From a virus, in IMG/VR virus record IMGVR_UViG_3300046519_000460, positions 1-25,888 of that record: a stretch of DNA of 25,888 bases, one strand, 5' to 3'. Both the position numbers and the translations under genes were made by a program. Shown here piece by piece: positions 20,858 to 25,888 of the stretch. A model generated the notes under the pieces. The model was not told the origin of the DNA, did no database searches, and saw only the letters and a list, made by a program, of their open reading frames with translations. Each line of letters opens with the position of its first letter. The first letter of the stretch is position 1.

Positions 20858-21204
20858 CACCCGACCTCGCTTTCCGAAGAACAATTTTGATTGAAAGGAT
20901 GCCCACATGCCCGAGTGGAAACAGAATGAAGCGGGGCAGGTTGACCTAAAATCTCTGGTGGGATGGCGAACGGAATTGATCCCGATGGTAGGTCTGCTCC
21001 AAATTCAGTACGCAGAGAGCGACGAAGACCTTCATACTGGCGGCGCAGTTCTTCAATTGGCCATGACCGCTGAACAAGCATTTCTGCTTGCGAAAGATCT
21101 GATGGAAATGCTCGACCGGCTGGAACAGCAGCCGATCGGCACGAAGCAATAGCGATCCGCTGCCGCAGCATTTCGCGCGCACCAGCGTCGACCGATCCAG
21201 CCAT
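20857..21204 (-). pseudogene. Probable 5' remnant of a leftward gene, overprinted by an antisense cassette
   Basis: The frame starts at the ATG at 21204, overlapping the stop of the Cro-like gene (ATGA), and stops in another ATGA overlap at 20857. The first 20 residues (MAGSVDAGAREMLRQRIAI) look like a normal early phage protein with GC-rich codons. From about residue 21 the codons become A/T-rich and unusual (CCA, TTA, TCA), exactly where the plus-strand gene 20907-21152 lies on the other strand. I infer that the plus-strand gene was inserted into or replaced the body of this gene. A functional 115-residue product cannot be excluded. Confidence 0.4.
20907..21152 (+). CDS. Antisense cassette gene 2: small hypothetical protein, 81 aa
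   Basis: 81 residues on the plus strand within the leftward operon. The ATG at 20907 has AAGGA seven bases upstream. The protein (MPEWKQNEAGQVDLKS, then LIPMVGLLQIQYAESDEDL, VLQLAMTAEQAFLLAKDLME) has strands followed by a TAEQA helix, a pattern common in small alphaproteobacterial proteins of unknown role. G+C of the gene is visibly lower than flanking genes, and it contains codons such as CTA and AAA that are rare nearby. It ends about 50 bases before the preserved start of the interrupted leftward gene. Likely a horizontally acquired moron; function unknown. Confidence 0.75.
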   Translation: MPEWKQNEAGQVDLKSLVGWRTELIPMVGLLQIQYAESDEDLHTGGAVLQLAMTAEQAFLLAKDLMEMLDRLEQQPIGTKQ

Positions 21205-21470
21205 CACGCCGCCTCGCTTGTCTGGGCGGCAAGATCGCCGCTTTTGCCGGGCGACGGGGATTGCTGCGGCGCGGTATCCGTCAGGGTATGAGCAACGATG
21301 AACTCTCGAACCTTGGCGACCGTTTGGGGCCACAGCCGGCGCTTACCCCGCACGTCACGCACAAAATGCGGGTCGCCCATGGCGCGCCGGCCAAAGGATG
21401 TTTCGGTCATATCCGACAGCGCCATGAAGGCTTCGATTTCGGCGACCAGTTCAGGGTGATGCTGAGACAT
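21204..21470 (-). CDS. Cro-like first gene of the leftward early operon, 88 aa
   Basis: 88 residues from the ATG at 21470. The core DMTETSFGRRAMGDPHFVRD, VRGKRRLWPQTVAKVREFI (about residues 19-58) has an HTH-like pattern I recognise from small regulators in alphaproteobacterial phages (FGRRAMGDPHFV and LWP being the constant parts). It is divergent from the CI gene, with three operator-like sites between, the position of Cro in lambdoid phages. Leftward transcription from the promoter at 21483-21506 starts immediately upstream. A DNA-binding role opposing CI is inferred. Confidence 0.75.
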   Translation of the reverse strand: MSQHHPELVAEIEAFMALSDMTETSFGRRAMGDPHFVRDVRGKRRLWPQTVAKVREFIVAHTLTDTAPQQSPSPGKSGDLAAQTSEAA

Positions 21471-21482
21471 GCCCGATGACTA

Positions 21483-21506
21483 ATGTAGGACATATCCTAC
21501 CGTCAA
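21483..21506 (-). promoter_or_regulatory. Leftward early promoter overlapped by a CI operator
   Basis: On the minus strand TTGACG (21506-21501) is a good -35 box for the leftward operon. The operator GTAGGA-CATA-TCCTAC (21485-21500, plus-strand reading) fills the spacer, and a TTAGTC/ATTAGT -10-like hexamer follows at about 21484-21478. Repressor bound here would block RNA polymerase. The -10 match is weak, so the exact start is uncertain. Confidence 0.55.
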
Positions 21507-21568
21507 GCGCTAAATGTAGGATAAGTCCCAATCTAGCTTCGCACCCGTCATTGTGGGAAGCCTCCCAC
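21485..21568. promoter_or_regulatory. Three CI operators between Cro-like and CI genes
   Basis: Three 16-bp dyads with 6-base arms and a 4-base centre: 21485-21500 (GTAGGA/TCCTAC, perfect arms), 21516-21531 (GTAGGA/TCCCAA, degenerate right arm) and 21553-21568 (GTGGGA/TCCCAC, perfect arms, variant sequence). The starts are 31 and 37 bases apart. The third abuts the CI start codon, so it could mediate autorepression. Two further copies lie at 22909-22955. Confidence 0.75.
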
Positions 21569-22270
21569 ATGGTCGAGGGAATTTCAACACTCCAGCATTT
21601 TGTCGCACGGGCGCTCGCCTTCGCGCCACAGAAGCGTGATTTTTATGACAGTCTCATTCAGGAGCGGAGCAACACCAAAGGCAAGCCGATCTATGATATC
21701 CAGCGAGGCAAGAGCAAAAAGCCAAATGCAGAAACCTTGCGCCTGATTGCTGAAGTGCTGGAACAGCCCTACGAACTGATTTCAAAGGCTGCGGCCGGTT
21801 TTTCGGTTGAACCTTCTCGCATCGCCCCCGACGTGCCGCCGACGATGCAGAGTGATGACGATACCGTCGAAATCCTTTCAGTCGATCTCTCCTTCTCCAT
21901 GGGGCCAGGCACGTCGATCGACGACTATATCGAGGAAACGCCGGTACGCTTTGGCATGTCATTCCTTAGGGCCATCACGCGATCACCCTTTGAGCGTCTG
22001 CGCCTTGCGCGGGGGGTGGGCGACAGCATGTTTCCTACGCTGGTCGGCGGCGATGTCGTCCTGATCGATACGACGCAGCGGATGCTGAACAAGCAAGACG
22101 GCGTTTATGCGATCTCAATCTACGGCGCTGCAGCGATCAAGCGGCTGCGAACGATCGGACCACAAAGGATCATGGTCAAGTCCGACAACCCACGCGTGGA
22201 CGACCAGGAGGTCGATGCGGAAGACCTCATCATTGCTGGTCGGGTCATCTGGTTTGGGAGAGAATTGTGA
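21569..22270 (+). CDS. CI-type phage repressor, HTH plus S24 peptidase-like domain
   Basis: 233 residues from the ATG at 21569; 31 earlier codons are open but run through the operators, so they are rejected. An HTH lies at about residues 23-72 (DFYDSLIQERSNTKGKPIYD, RGKSKKPNAETLRLIAEVLE). A linker containing AAAG-FSVE (Ala76-Gly77) is a possible self-cleavage point. The S24 domain has GVGDSMFPTLVGGD (Ser153) and the AAIKRL lysine (Lys191), the LexA-like dyad. The gene is less GC-rich than the structural genes. It maintains lysogeny by binding the GTAGGA-N4-TCCTAC sites on both sides and is probably inactivated by RecA during the SOS response. Its stop overlaps the lipoprotein start (GTGA). 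Confidence 0.92.
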   Translation: MVEGISTLQHFVARALAFAPQKRDFYDSLIQERSNTKGKPIYDIQRGKSKKPNAETLRLIAEVLEQPYELISKAAAGFSVEPSRIAPDVPPTMQSDDDTVEILSVDLSFSMGPGTSIDDYIEETPVRFGMSFLRAITRSPFERLRLARGVGDSMFPTLVGGDVVLIDTTQRMLNKQDGVYAISIYGAAAIKRLRTIGPQRIMVKSDNPRVDDQEVDAEDLIIAGRVIWFGREL

Positions 22271-22509
22271 AATGTCGCGCATTAACGCTGTCAGCCGTGA
22301 TGACGCTGGCGATTGCGGGCTGTAGCAAGGCGGCATCCCTTGAGCGCGAATATGCCAATGCCAAGAAAGTGGCAGGATCAGAAACCATTAGGTGCAAGAT
22401 CGCTCGGGAAATTCAGGAGGAATATATACGGAGCGGTGATGCCGCTTCTGCGCAAGGATGGGGCACTACCGCCAGATTTGATTGCTCCATAAGCCGCCTG
22501 CGCATCTGA
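22267..22509 (+). CDS. Small lipoprotein co-transcribed with CI (candidate lysogenic-conversion protein)
   Basis: 80 residues from a GTG at 22267 that overlaps the CI stop (GTGA). Residues 1-18 are a signal peptide (MKCRALTLSAVMTLAIAG) with lipobox IAG-C, so Cys19 would be lipidated and the mature 62 residues exposed in the periplasm. The mature part has two cysteines (Cys44 and Cys73) that may form a disulfide. Coupling to CI means it is made in the lysogen. Small phage lipoproteins in this position in other phages block superinfection or alter the envelope; for this protein that is inference, and no family is recognised. Confidence 0.82.
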   Translation: MKCRALTLSAVMTLAIAGCSKAASLEREYANAKKVAGSETIRCKIAREIQEEYIRSGDAASAQGWGTTARFDCSISRLRI

Positions 22510-22530
22510 AATCACCAGAGCTCAACCGAA

Positions 22531-22908
22531 GTGCAGATCTCGATCTTCTTAGCCGGGGCCAGCTATCCCAATGAACGCGGCCCCTCACGCCGCTTCGAAA
22601 TAGCAATATGCCAACCCGGCGAAGCCGTCGAGCTTCGACCTGAACCGAACAATCCAGCCGATGCCCGAGCGATCGCAATCTATTCCCAGCGCAATGTGAA
22701 GATGGGTTACGTCCCGGCAGAGCGCGCAGCATTGATCGGAACCTACCTACGGCGGGGCCGAATCACCGACGCACAGTTTCAGTGCGCTACCAAAGCTGGT
22801 GGATACATACGGCTCGCCCTTGATGGCGCGCTTATCGTTCTGCCGCCCCCTGCGGATGAAAACACACCCTCGGAATTCTGGCCGGACTTCATCCCGCCGG
22901 ATGACTGA
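22531..22908 (+). CDS. HIRAN-domain protein, 125 aa
   Basis: 125 residues from a GTG at 22531. The sequence has the HIRAN pattern: FLAGASYPNERGPSRRFEIA, CQPGEAVELRPEPNNPADARAIAIYS, then VKMGYVPAERAALIGTYL and a C-terminal strand set ending IVLPPPADEN. HIRAN modules bind DNA ends, including 3' ends at stalled forks in HLTF/Rad5, and occur as stand-alone proteins in bacteria. It is 21 bases beyond the lipoprotein gene in the CI operon, so it should be produced in the lysogen. A role in guarding DNA or in defence is inference. It ends just before the rightward operators. Confidence 0.82.
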   Translation: MQISIFLAGASYPNERGPSRRFEIAICQPGEAVELRPEPNNPADARAIAIYSQRNVKMGYVPAERAALIGTYLRRGRITDAQFQCATKAGGYIRLALDGALIVLPPPADENTPSEFWPDFIPPDD

Positions 22909-22960
22909 ATAGGGCATTTCCTACTTTTGATTTGACTTTGTAGGATGTGTCCTACTATCA
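22909..22960 (+). promoter_or_regulatory. Rightward early promoter with two CI operators
   Basis: A TTGACT -35 box (22932-22937) is followed by a perfect-arm operator GTAGGA-TGTG-TCCTAC (22940-22955) covering the spacer and a TACTAT/CTATCA -10-like region at 22953-22960. A degenerate copy (ATAGGG-CATT-TCCTAC) is at 22909-22924, 31 bases upstream, the same spacing as the first pair at 21485. CI binding here would shut off the rightward operon starting at 22988. Unlike lambda, the two operator clusters flank the CI-lipoprotein-HIRAN unit. Confidence 0.7.
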
Positions 22961-22987
22961 CCCTTCCGTCACCAACGGGAGGCCCCC

Positions 22988-23449
22988 ATGCTCAAGGTCG
23001 AAACCACATTCCCCTTTCCCGGCTCCATCGCCGCCTATGAAGGCATGCGCTGGCGCATCATCAGCCACAATGCCGATGGCACCGCCATCATCGGCCGGGA
23101 TGGCCCCAGCGCCAGCTTCACCCGCCGCGCCCCACTCGCCGACCTGATCGACCCGGCGGAGGTGGACGAGAACGCCCGCATCACCCTGTGCGACCTGGGC
23201 AAGGCGACGCAGAAGCTGTGCATCTTCATCGAAGAGCATCTGCGCGGCCGCAATGAAGTGACACTTGGCCTGCTGGCCCAGGTGCTCGCCTTCACCGCGC
23301 GCAAGGGGATCATCCCCGGCCACCGCGACAACGCCCACATCGCCCAGTGCCTGAGCGCCCTGGGCTGGCGCAAACAGGGCTATGCCGGCCAAGGCGCCCT
23401 GCGCAGCCCCGTCTACGTCCGCCCCGCCGTGATGGAGAAGGCGGCGTGA
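22988..23449 (+). CDS. First gene of the rightward early operon, 153 aa
   Basis: 153 residues; the ATG at 22988 has GGGAGG six bases upstream. The N-terminal half contains YEGMRWRIISHNADGTAIIG, a small beta domain. The C-terminal half (QVLAFTARKGIIPGHRDNAH, IAQCLSALGWRKQGYAGQG, then SPVYVRP) looks like a winged helix of the kind found at the ends of phage replication and VapE-type proteins. It is directly under the CI-controlled promoter. Function unknown; nucleic-acid binding is likely. Confidence 0.75.
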   Translation: MLKVETTFPFPGSIAAYEGMRWRIISHNADGTAIIGRDGPSASFTRRAPLADLIDPAEVDENARITLCDLGKATQKLCIFIEEHLRGRNEVTLGLLAQVLAFTARKGIIPGHRDNAHIAQCLSALGWRKQGYAGQGALRSPVYVRPAVMEKAA

Positions 23450-24217: not shown

Positions 24218-24576
24218 TGACCGCCGCCCTCGCCCGCATCGCCCAGGAAGAGCGCAAGCGCCGCGCAGCTGCATGGCAACGCGAGATCGCGCGAGCCACT
24301 GGCGAGAAGGCGCGCACGCTGCAGGCCCGCGCCCAGGCGGACGACGCCATCTGGTCGTCGATCGCGGAGGCCGCGCGCATCGGCTTTCGCTACTGCGATG
24401 CCGACACGGCCTGGCGCAGCCTCTGCGCCACCCTTGCCGCCGCGATCGCCATGCACGACGCCGGCAAGCTGCCCCGCGCCAAGGTGCAGGATCTGATCGC
24501 CCTGCGCGATTGGTTCTGGACATGGGCGCCGAAGGACGCCGCCGGCGATCGACCGAACGAGGCGAAGGCCGCATGA
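24217..24576 (+). CDS. Hypothetical helical protein, 119 aa
   Basis: 119 residues from a GTG at 24217, overlapping the preceding TAG by one base. It is strongly helical: LARIAQEERKRRAAAWQREI, a coiled-coil-like EKARTLQARAQADDAIWSSI, then RIGFRYCDADTAWRSLCATL and a C-terminal LIALRDWFWTWAPKD. No family is recognised. It ends in an ATGA overlap with the excisionase-like gene, so it is expressed with the recombination genes. Confidence 0.7.
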   Translation: MTAALARIAQEERKRRAAAWQREIARATGEKARTLQARAQADDAIWSSIAEAARIGFRYCDADTAWRSLCATLAAAIAMHDAGKLPRAKVQDLIALRDWFWTWAPKDAAGDRPNEAKAA

Positions 24577-24869
24577 ACGCCATGACATCCCAGCCGGCCC
24601 TGATGACCGAAGAACAGGCCGCCACATGGCTCAGCATTTGCCCGCGCACGCTGCGAAAGCTGCGCACTGACGGCAAAATTCACTACGTCTTGATCCGGTC
24701 GTCCGTTCGCTACACCATGGACGACCTTGCCCGCTTCGTCGAAAGTGCCCGCACATGCCAGTCTATCAACGCGAAGGCTCCCCCTACTGGTGGTACAGCT
24801 TCTCGATCGATGGTCGCCGATTTCGAGGCAGCACGGGCTGCACGACACAGAAGCAAGCGAAGATCGTAG
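24573..24869 (+). CDS. xis: Excisionase-like HTH_17 (MerR-type) DNA-binding protein
   Basis: 98 residues from the ATG at 24573 (ATGA overlap). The winged-helix core TEEQAATWLSICPRTLRKLR, then DGKIHYVLIRSSVRYTMDDL and ARFVESAR (about residues 12-60) is the helix-turn-helix_17 excisionase type that bends DNA at the attachment site and directs the integrase to excision. The last 38 codons overlap the integrase start in another frame (115 bases, 24755-24869); these C-terminal residues are basic and low in pattern. The gene symbol is by analogy. Confidence 0.82.
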   Translation: MNAMTSQPALMTEEQAATWLSICPRTLRKLRTDGKIHYVLIRSSVRYTMDDLARFVESARTCQSINAKAPPTGGTASRSMVADFEAARAARHRSKRRS

Positions 24870-25888
24870 AGGCCGAGAAATTCCAGGACGCGGTCAAGCG
24901 CCCGGGAAAGAACGACCAGTGGCGGCTGCGCGAAGTTCTGGGCACCTATTGGTCCGAACACGCCTGCAACGTCGAGAGCGCCAGCGACATCTTCTTCCAT
25001 TTCGAATTGCTCAGCGAATTTCTTGGCCGCGACCTGCCGATCGACCAGCTCACCAACGCGCTGCTGATGGACTATCGCGGCGCGCGACGCGGCGGATCGA
25101 TCAAAGCCACCGAGGCGATGAAGGAAGGCCGGCCCACGGCGTGGAACCGGCGCATGGTGACGGCGCAGGGCTTCATCCGCGCCGTCAAGCCGCAGACAGT
25201 CAACCGGGATCTGGCCCACCTGCAGGCGGCCATCGGATGGGCGGCCGACGTTCACGGCAAGACGGTGCCGCAACTCAGCTGGAAACGCCTGAAGGCGAAG
25301 GAAGCCCCGCACCGCATCCGCTTCGCCGCCGCAGACGAGTTTGCCGCCCTGATGGAGGCTGCCCATCCGGCCATCAGGCCGATCATCCTGTGCGCTGTCA
25401 CCACCGGCCTGCGCCGCGGCAACATCCTCATGCTCGATTGGCATCAGGTCGACCTGGCCGGCAGCACCATCACCCTGCCCACCGGCAAGGGCGACAAACC
25501 GCACCTCGTCCGCATCGCGCCGGTGCTGCGTGCAGATCTCGTCCGCATCGCGCCGGTGCTGCGTGCAGATCTCGGCCGCACCAGGCCGAAGGACCGCAAG
25601 GGGCCTGTCTTCGATCTCACCAATTTCAGGAAGCGCTGGCAGGCGGCGGTCAAGGCGGCCGAGCTGACCGACTTCAAGTTCCACGACATCCGCCACACCT
25701 TCGCCAGTTGGGCACGCCAGAACGGCGCGGATCTCGCCGACATCTGCGACGCCCTCAACCACAGCAGCGTCAGCGTGACGATGCGCTACGCCCATGTGAA
25801 ACCGACAGAGACGATGACGGCATTCGACAGGGTCGCGGATTTGCTCCAGGCACAATCCCGGTCACAACCGGCAAAAACAGGCAGCTAA
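24755..25888 (+). CDS. int: Tyrosine integrase with an internal 33-bp duplication
   Basis: 377 residues from the ATG at 24755, lying inside the excisionase gene. The N-terminus has an arm-binding-like domain (PVYQREGSPYWWYSFSIDG), then a core-binding domain. Catalytic residues are present in order: Arg220 (TTGLRRGNIL), Lys245 (LPTGKGDKPH), His310 and Arg313 (KFHDIRHTFASW), His336 (LNHSSVSVT) and Tyr345 (MRYAHV). Between the Lys strand and the HxxR box, LVRIAPVLRAD occurs twice in tandem (residues 251-272), lengthening that loop by 11 residues. The stop codon is the last base triplet of the window, so the attachment site lies outside. It integrates and excises the phage genome. Confidence 0.94.
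   Translation: MPVYQREGSPYWWYSFSIDGRRFRGSTGCTTQKQAKIVEAEKFQDAVKRPGKNDQWRLREVLGTYWSEHACNVESASDIFFHFELLSEFLGRDLPIDQLTNALLMDYRGARRGGSIKATEAMKEGRPTAWNRRMVTAQGFIRAVKPQTVNRDLAHLQAAIGWAADVHGKTVPQLSWKRLKAKEAPHRIRFAAADEFAALMEAAHPAIRPIILCAVTTGLRRGNILMLDWHQVDLAGSTITLPTGKGDKPHLVRIAPVLRADLVRIAPVLRADLGRTRPKDRKGPVFDLTNFRKRWQAAVKAAELTDFKFHDIRHTFASWARQNGADLADICDALNHSSVSVTMRYAHVKPTETMTAFDRVADLLQAQSRSQPAKTGS
25505..25570 (+). repeat. 33-bp exact tandem duplication inside the integrase gene
   Basis: Bases 25505-25537 and 25538-25570 are identical and adjacent, and the first bases of a third partial copy (CTCGGCCGC) follow. The unit is a multiple of three, so the frame is kept and 11 residues are added. Exact identity suggests a recent slip or a polymorphic tract. 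Confidence 0.92.

Follow-up and report, generated by a model that had tools for sequence, protein, structure and literature searches.

Phage lambda carries its immunity region in the order cro-OR-cI-rex-OL, with pL leading to xis/int. In the lambdoid imm hybrids (434, 21, P22), the immunity block is exchanged together with its operators between related phages, and the Rhizobium/Sinorhizobium phage 16-3, an alphaproteobacterial temperate phage, has a repressor with OL and OR. The two operator sets of lambda are about 2.3 kb apart and are looped (PMC5880393), and lambda RexA binds DNA and tilts the switch of that phage towards lysis (PMC11077077).

The window analysed here is the entire virus record of 25,888 bases, and its phage is temperate and related to sphingomonad prophages. 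Judged from its sequence, the locus under study has the lambda layout with a different operator family and a HIRAN gene where lambda has rex. It runs from the leftward lytic genes and cro through O1, O2 and O3 to cI, the cargo, hiran, O4 and O5 and on rightward to xis/int. Our literature search, which had most subscription journals outside its reach, found no description of the operator motif, and within that reach the operator family is apparently undescribed. The features, in window coordinates, are as follows.

21204..21470, minus strand: Cro-like repressor gene, 88 aa, first gene of the leftward lytic operon
21478..21506, minus strand: putative cro promoter, -35 TTGACG (21501-21506), 17-bp spacer, -10 TTAGTC (21478-21483)
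21485-21500: O1, GTAGGACATATCCTAC, 0 mismatches to the GTAGGA-N4-TCCTAC-type motif, perfect dyad
21516-21531: O2, GTAGGATAAGTCCCAA, 2 mismatches, imperfect arms
21529-21534: putative -10 of cI, CAATCT, overlapping the right end of O2
21553-21568: O3, GTGGGAAGCCTCCCAC, 2 mismatches, perfect dyad, cI ATG (21569) directly after
21569..22270, plus strand: cI repressor, 233 aa, N-terminal HTH domain and C-terminal S24/LexA-type domain
22267..22509, plus strand: small lipoprotein-like cargo gene, 80 aa, lipobox LAIAGC, in a slot that is variable in relatives
22531..22908, plus strand: stand-alone HIRAN-domain protein, 125 aa, PF08797 with 44.9 bits against a cut-off of 24.7
22909-22924: O4, ATAGGGCATTTCCTAC, 2 mismatches, imperfect arms, directly after the HIRAN stop codon
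22932..22961, plus strand: putative rightward promoter, -35 TTGACT (22932-22937), 18-bp spacer, -10 TATCAC (22956-22961)
22940-22955: O5, GTAGGATGTGTCCTAC, 0 mismatches, perfect dyad
22988..23449, plus strand: first gene of the rightward operon, 153 aa, no Pfam/PHROG family found
24573..24869, plus strand: excisionase-type HTH protein, 98 aa, phrog_66 (E=3e-7), PF12728 in the same frame
24755..25888, plus strand: tyrosine integrase, PF00589 (E=9.7e-23), 3' end at the record edge

The preliminary description had placed five dyads of this type around the repressor operon, three between the cro-like and cI genes and two behind the cI-lipoprotein-HIRAN unit, and all five were found there. The first two sites of each cluster are 31 bp apart, as it had stated (O1-O2 and O4-O5; O2-O3 is 37 bp), and the third site does abut the CI start, with O3 ending at 21568 and the ATG at 21569. 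The statement that all sites share 6-base arms holds for the perfect dyads O1, O3 and O5 and was too loose for the whole set, because the arms of O2 and O4 are imperfect. The distance from O1 to O5 is 1455 bp. Fourteen motif matches with up to three mismatches occur in the window against 3.3 expected, a number reached by none of 100 shuffles, and the sole further site with at most two mismatches is at 2918, inside the major head gene.

The promoters were assigned by eye from consensus-like hexamers, and that of cI is the least certain of them. As read from the sequence, O1 fills the spacer of TTGACG-N17-TTAGTC on the minus strand and O5 fills that of TTGACT-N18-TATCAC on the plus strand, and these two outward promoters face the cro/lytic genes and xis/int, respectively. 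The putative cI -10 has the form TAnnnT in most relatives. On the minus strand, the cro-like gene is followed leftward by ParB-like genes, a sliding clamp, a primase-helicase, terminase, portal and major head genes, and leftward is the lytic direction. Rightward come cI, the small lipoprotein-like gene, hiran, O4/O5 and the operon that reaches the excisionase-type protein and the tyrosine integrase.

The CI protein matched PF00717 (E=7.5e-13) and a PHROG transcriptional repressor (E=4.5e-28). Its structural model (pLDDT 89.5) has lambda CI and a lambda-186 hybrid among its best structural matches; the C-domain matches LexA, 186 CI and lambda CI (Z about 11-15), and the N-domain matches TP901-1 CI (Z 7.9), SinR and 434 Cro (Z 7.3-7.6). 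Pfam gave no HTH match for CI or for the Cro-like protein, and the latter had no PHROG match either. The four-helix model of the Cro-like protein (pLDDT 79) gave weak Foldseek matches with E of at least 0.15, nearly all of them to HTH proteins (ClgR, HipB, 434 Cro). Both models look like HTH folds, with a weak match for Cro.

The catalytic pair S153 and K191 is present in the window CI, and in the family alignment the Ser is found in 89/89 and the Lys in 85/89 sequences, with Arg in its place in L082, L088, L101 and L105. In 88 of the 89 sequences a Met precedes the conserved Gly at the S24 self-cleavage place; the remaining one has Leu, and neither Ala nor Cys occurs there, so the Ala-Gly or Cys-Gly cleavage site of self-cleaving S24/LexA repressors is absent. 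In the window CI the Met-Gly consists of residues 111-112 (about 21899-21904), where lambda CI has Ala-Gly. It may slow or block self-cleavage of CI, and as it differs from lambda and LexA, induction may not run as in lambda.

The locus resembles lambda in the divergent cro and cI genes with several similar operators between them, in the second cluster of the same motif beyond the cI operon over an outward promoter to xis/int, and in a CI with an HTH N-domain and an S24/LexA-type C-domain. It differs from lambda in the operator sequence, in the far cluster of two sites against three, in the mirrored orientation and in apparently having HIRAN and variable cargo in place of rexAB; the Pfam and PHROG family scans named no Rex family behind cI in the window. 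The HIRAN gene behind cI may be likened to RexA in its lysogen-expressed operon, but it belongs to a different Pfam family, and some relatives are without HIRAN. Phage 16-3 is similar in that it is described as having two operator regions.

The locus is very probably (about 0.9) a temperate-phage immunity region with the mirror image of the lambda layout, in which the CI of the lysogen would bind both clusters and silence both outward promoters. From this arrangement we infer CI binding, Cro binding, cooperativity, autoregulation and looping. In the lysogen, CI would most likely be present on both clusters, and at O1 and O5 it would cover the -35/-10 spacers, so that the cro/lytic and xis/int operons would be off. 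The pairs of sites 31 bp apart, which is about three helical turns, would suit cooperative CI dimers bound side by side. Autoregulation would likely act through O2 and O3, which lie at the putative promoter and the start codon of cI, and at O3, which abuts the cI ATG throughout, it is plausible. Cro would probably stop cI through the same sites in competition with CI.

CI looping over the 1.46 kb between the clusters is likewise plausible. The dyads could also be operators of two independent clusters that form no DNA loop, the second simply putting the xis/int promoter under the same repressor, and we give this slightly less than an even chance. Each cluster has its own full promoter-plus-operator arrangement, and the distance between them varies freely with the cargo, by our estimate from roughly 1.1 to 2.8 kb. 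However, variable spacing above 1 kb is compatible with loops, and in lambda, whose layout is the same, a loop spans about 2.3 kb (PMC5880393). Among the structural matches of CI was also the lambda CTD octamer, only as a fold match.

Scans with CI and with HIRAN yielded 20 loci in genomes and about 100 in viral sequences, some of which share a contig. In the search of genome contigs a single CI sequence gave no match, whereas the CI alignment did. Almost all of the 20 genome loci come from named sphingomonads; one is from a MAG labelled Salinicola and one is assigned only to Proteobacteria. The 84 distinct CI N-terminal domains were grouped by BLAST, and the class borders depend on this grouping. 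The class of the window (class 1) has 25 members, and all 25 loci carry a GT(A/C/T)GG(A/G)-N4 dyad in both clusters, the second cluster being some hundred bases further downstream in L025 and L077. Among the other 59 domains the motif of the window occurred once (L060), which was counted as a chance match. When no more than one mismatch to the motif of the sub-class was allowed, 78 sites were counted in the operator regions (22 kb) of the 25 loci and 0 in the other 248 kb. Moreover, the -35 TTGAC lies directly before O5 in 25/25 class-1 loci, TTGAC immediately precedes O1 on the minus strand in every one of the 18 loci in the GTAGGA and GTAGGG groups, and the cI ATG comes directly after O3 in all 25 class-1 loci, in L017 after a variant O3.

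Each variant of the CI recognition segment is accompanied by a motif that differs in a single base, at both clusters alike. Segments of the TKGKPIYD type pair with GTAGGA, TTGKPLWD with GTAGGG, GVNRGFF with GTCGGA and NRSFF with GTTGGA (L077, one locus), and these pairings look like a DNA-recognition code. Every class-1 locus also keeps the Cro-like gene, whose type is not the same in the GTAGGA/GTAGGG and the GTCGGA groups, so the sites are correlated with both Cro and CI. It is nevertheless very unlikely that they are mainly sites of Cro or another regulator and that CI uses different DNA. Between the GTAGGA and GTAGGG groups the CI segment changes from TKGKPIYD to TTGKPLWD while the Cro segment DPHFVRD is nearly unchanged, and since Cro hardly differs there, this motif change follows CI. 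In addition, O3 adjoins the cI ATG, and no second operator-like motif stands out between the cro-like and cI genes in the class-1 sequences inspected. That the dyads are RNA structures (an attenuator or a start-codon hairpin) and not protein-binding sites is scarcely credible: the 6-bp inverted repeat of O3 is perfect and adjoins the cI start codon, and its GTGGGA arm stays the same across operator variants, but the O3 stem is imperfect in many relatives (e.g., GTGGGATGCGCCCTAC, GTGGGACATGTCCGAC), its right arm follows the operator variant, and O1 and O5 lie inside promoter spacers, ahead of any likely transcription start.

In the GTCGGA group (L003, L017, L024, L065, L075, L077 and L085), the middle operator is replaced by a stretched pair of half-sites with a conserved centre, e.g., GTCGGAAACTTCAGGCTTCCGAC. 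The O1-O3 spacing in these seven loci is 58 bp, compared with 68 bp.

Most of the other classes carry a class-specific motif that likewise recurs at both clusters: CACC-N4-GGTG, TGCCC-N4-GGGCA, GCGATAATCG, GTGCA..TGCAC, CGCTAC.., CGGCAT.. and TACGA.. Eight operator classes have at least two members; except for that of the window, the operator classes were assigned by eye. Over the 84 modules, the best ungapped match between the flanks of the same locus averaged 13.9, compared with 9.0 for flanks of different classes, and the highest of 10,000 permuted means was 10.25, below the observed value. Among these modules, L053, L060, L120, L121 and some others had no clear motif common to both flanks.

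The motif was also used alone as a query. When GTAGGANNNNTCCTACSGTCAA, a DNA pattern of O1 plus the -35, was run against 2.9 million viral contigs, 12 stretches were retrieved, and 12/12 encode the N-domain of the window CI at the pattern; about half of these contigs had already been found in the CI search and the others were new. One of the loci, L137 (1230-2186), has a window-type N-domain joined to a different S24-like C-domain, is without HIRAN and has kept both clusters; it appears to be a domain-shuffling hybrid. Matches to the distal motif without CI in the stored stretch were obtained at L138-L148, and for this 17-base pattern roughly ten chance matches are estimated in a collection of such size. 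The split CI operator system put forward in the preliminary description is thus upheld by a motif specific to one class of CI DNA-binding domain and present in both clusters of 25/25 modules, by sites over the two outward promoters and by the retrieval of the CI gene with the motif alone. The lambda-type topology, the joint exchange of the domain with both operator clusters among relatives and the recurrence of HIRAN come in addition to that description.

On the CI C-domain tree, which was built from few columns by a quick method and has weak support in places, the N-domain class changes 40 times, where the least possible number is 7 and the shuffled mean 46.9. The C-domain of the window is nearest to that of L002 (75%), which belongs to another class. 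The relatives have replaced the CI DNA-binding domain many times, and both operator clusters along with it. Loci L037 and L061 are about 94% identical upstream of cro and at least 90% identical downstream of O5, and differ strongly in cro, O1-O3, the CI N-domain, the cargo and the O4/O5 promoter stretch of about 60 bp, and moderately in the CI C-domain and HIRAN. One exchange of the whole block spanning cro and O5 explains this more simply, because the whole of this segment differs while the outer flanks are >90% identical. For the same pair, a separate swap of the distal operators as a patch of about 60 bp was considered and dropped, as all of cro-O5 differs. In our reading, the family evolves through exchange of this cro-O5 block, with additional recombination within cI. 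The exchange of an immunity block resembles that in the lambdoid imm hybrids, unlike which the CI N-domain here also changes partner with a conserved C-domain. The family keeps its immunity layout while the repressor domain and two distant operator clusters change together, and this makes it an unusually clean natural data set on the joint replacement of repressors and operators, from which the reading of DNA by HTH domains and the origin of new immunity groups could be learned.

The locus also marks a cargo slot with some defence-like genes and a recurrent HIRAN partner. The HIRAN protein has an acidic, FWPDxIPPD-like C-terminal tail. In 117 of the 125 loci obtained by similarity, a set partly searched with HIRAN itself, hiran follows cI after 0-2 kb of variable cargo. 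Six phage records found by the operator motif have the same operators and no HIRAN match (the records may be fragments), and HIRAN as an obligate partner was rejected on account of them; it is frequent, not universal, at these loci. It is unlikely, in our view, that HIRAN, produced alongside CI in the lysogen, takes part in the switch by sensing DNA ends or stalled forks and tipping CI towards induction, thereby replacing or joining the RecA-driven self-cleavage that Met-Gly may hinder. If it were, its role would be a DNA-damage input unlike that of lambda.

The slot between cI and hiran is highly variable (e.g., L003, L033, L064, L068 and L135) and is probably expressed in the lysogen. In scans of the cargo genes, single members matched SIR2/ThsA, a STAND/AAA ATPase, PemK, DUF7946/7947 and several PADLOC candidate families. 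In L127 the second operator cluster is directly behind cI, and in L135 the 379-aa protein behind cI reads like an O-antigen acyltransferase.

Two minor observations concern the rightward operon. A short hairpin, which often pairs the RBS GGAGG, lies at the start of the rightward transcript (22962-22982) and in the same place in 68 relatives; its mean z was -1.9 over 68 loci with mononucleotide shuffles and only -1.1 for the window alone with dinucleotide shuffles. The integrase gene contains a 33-bp tandem duplication of 2.3 copies (25505-25580), by which LVRIAPVLRAD is encoded twice.
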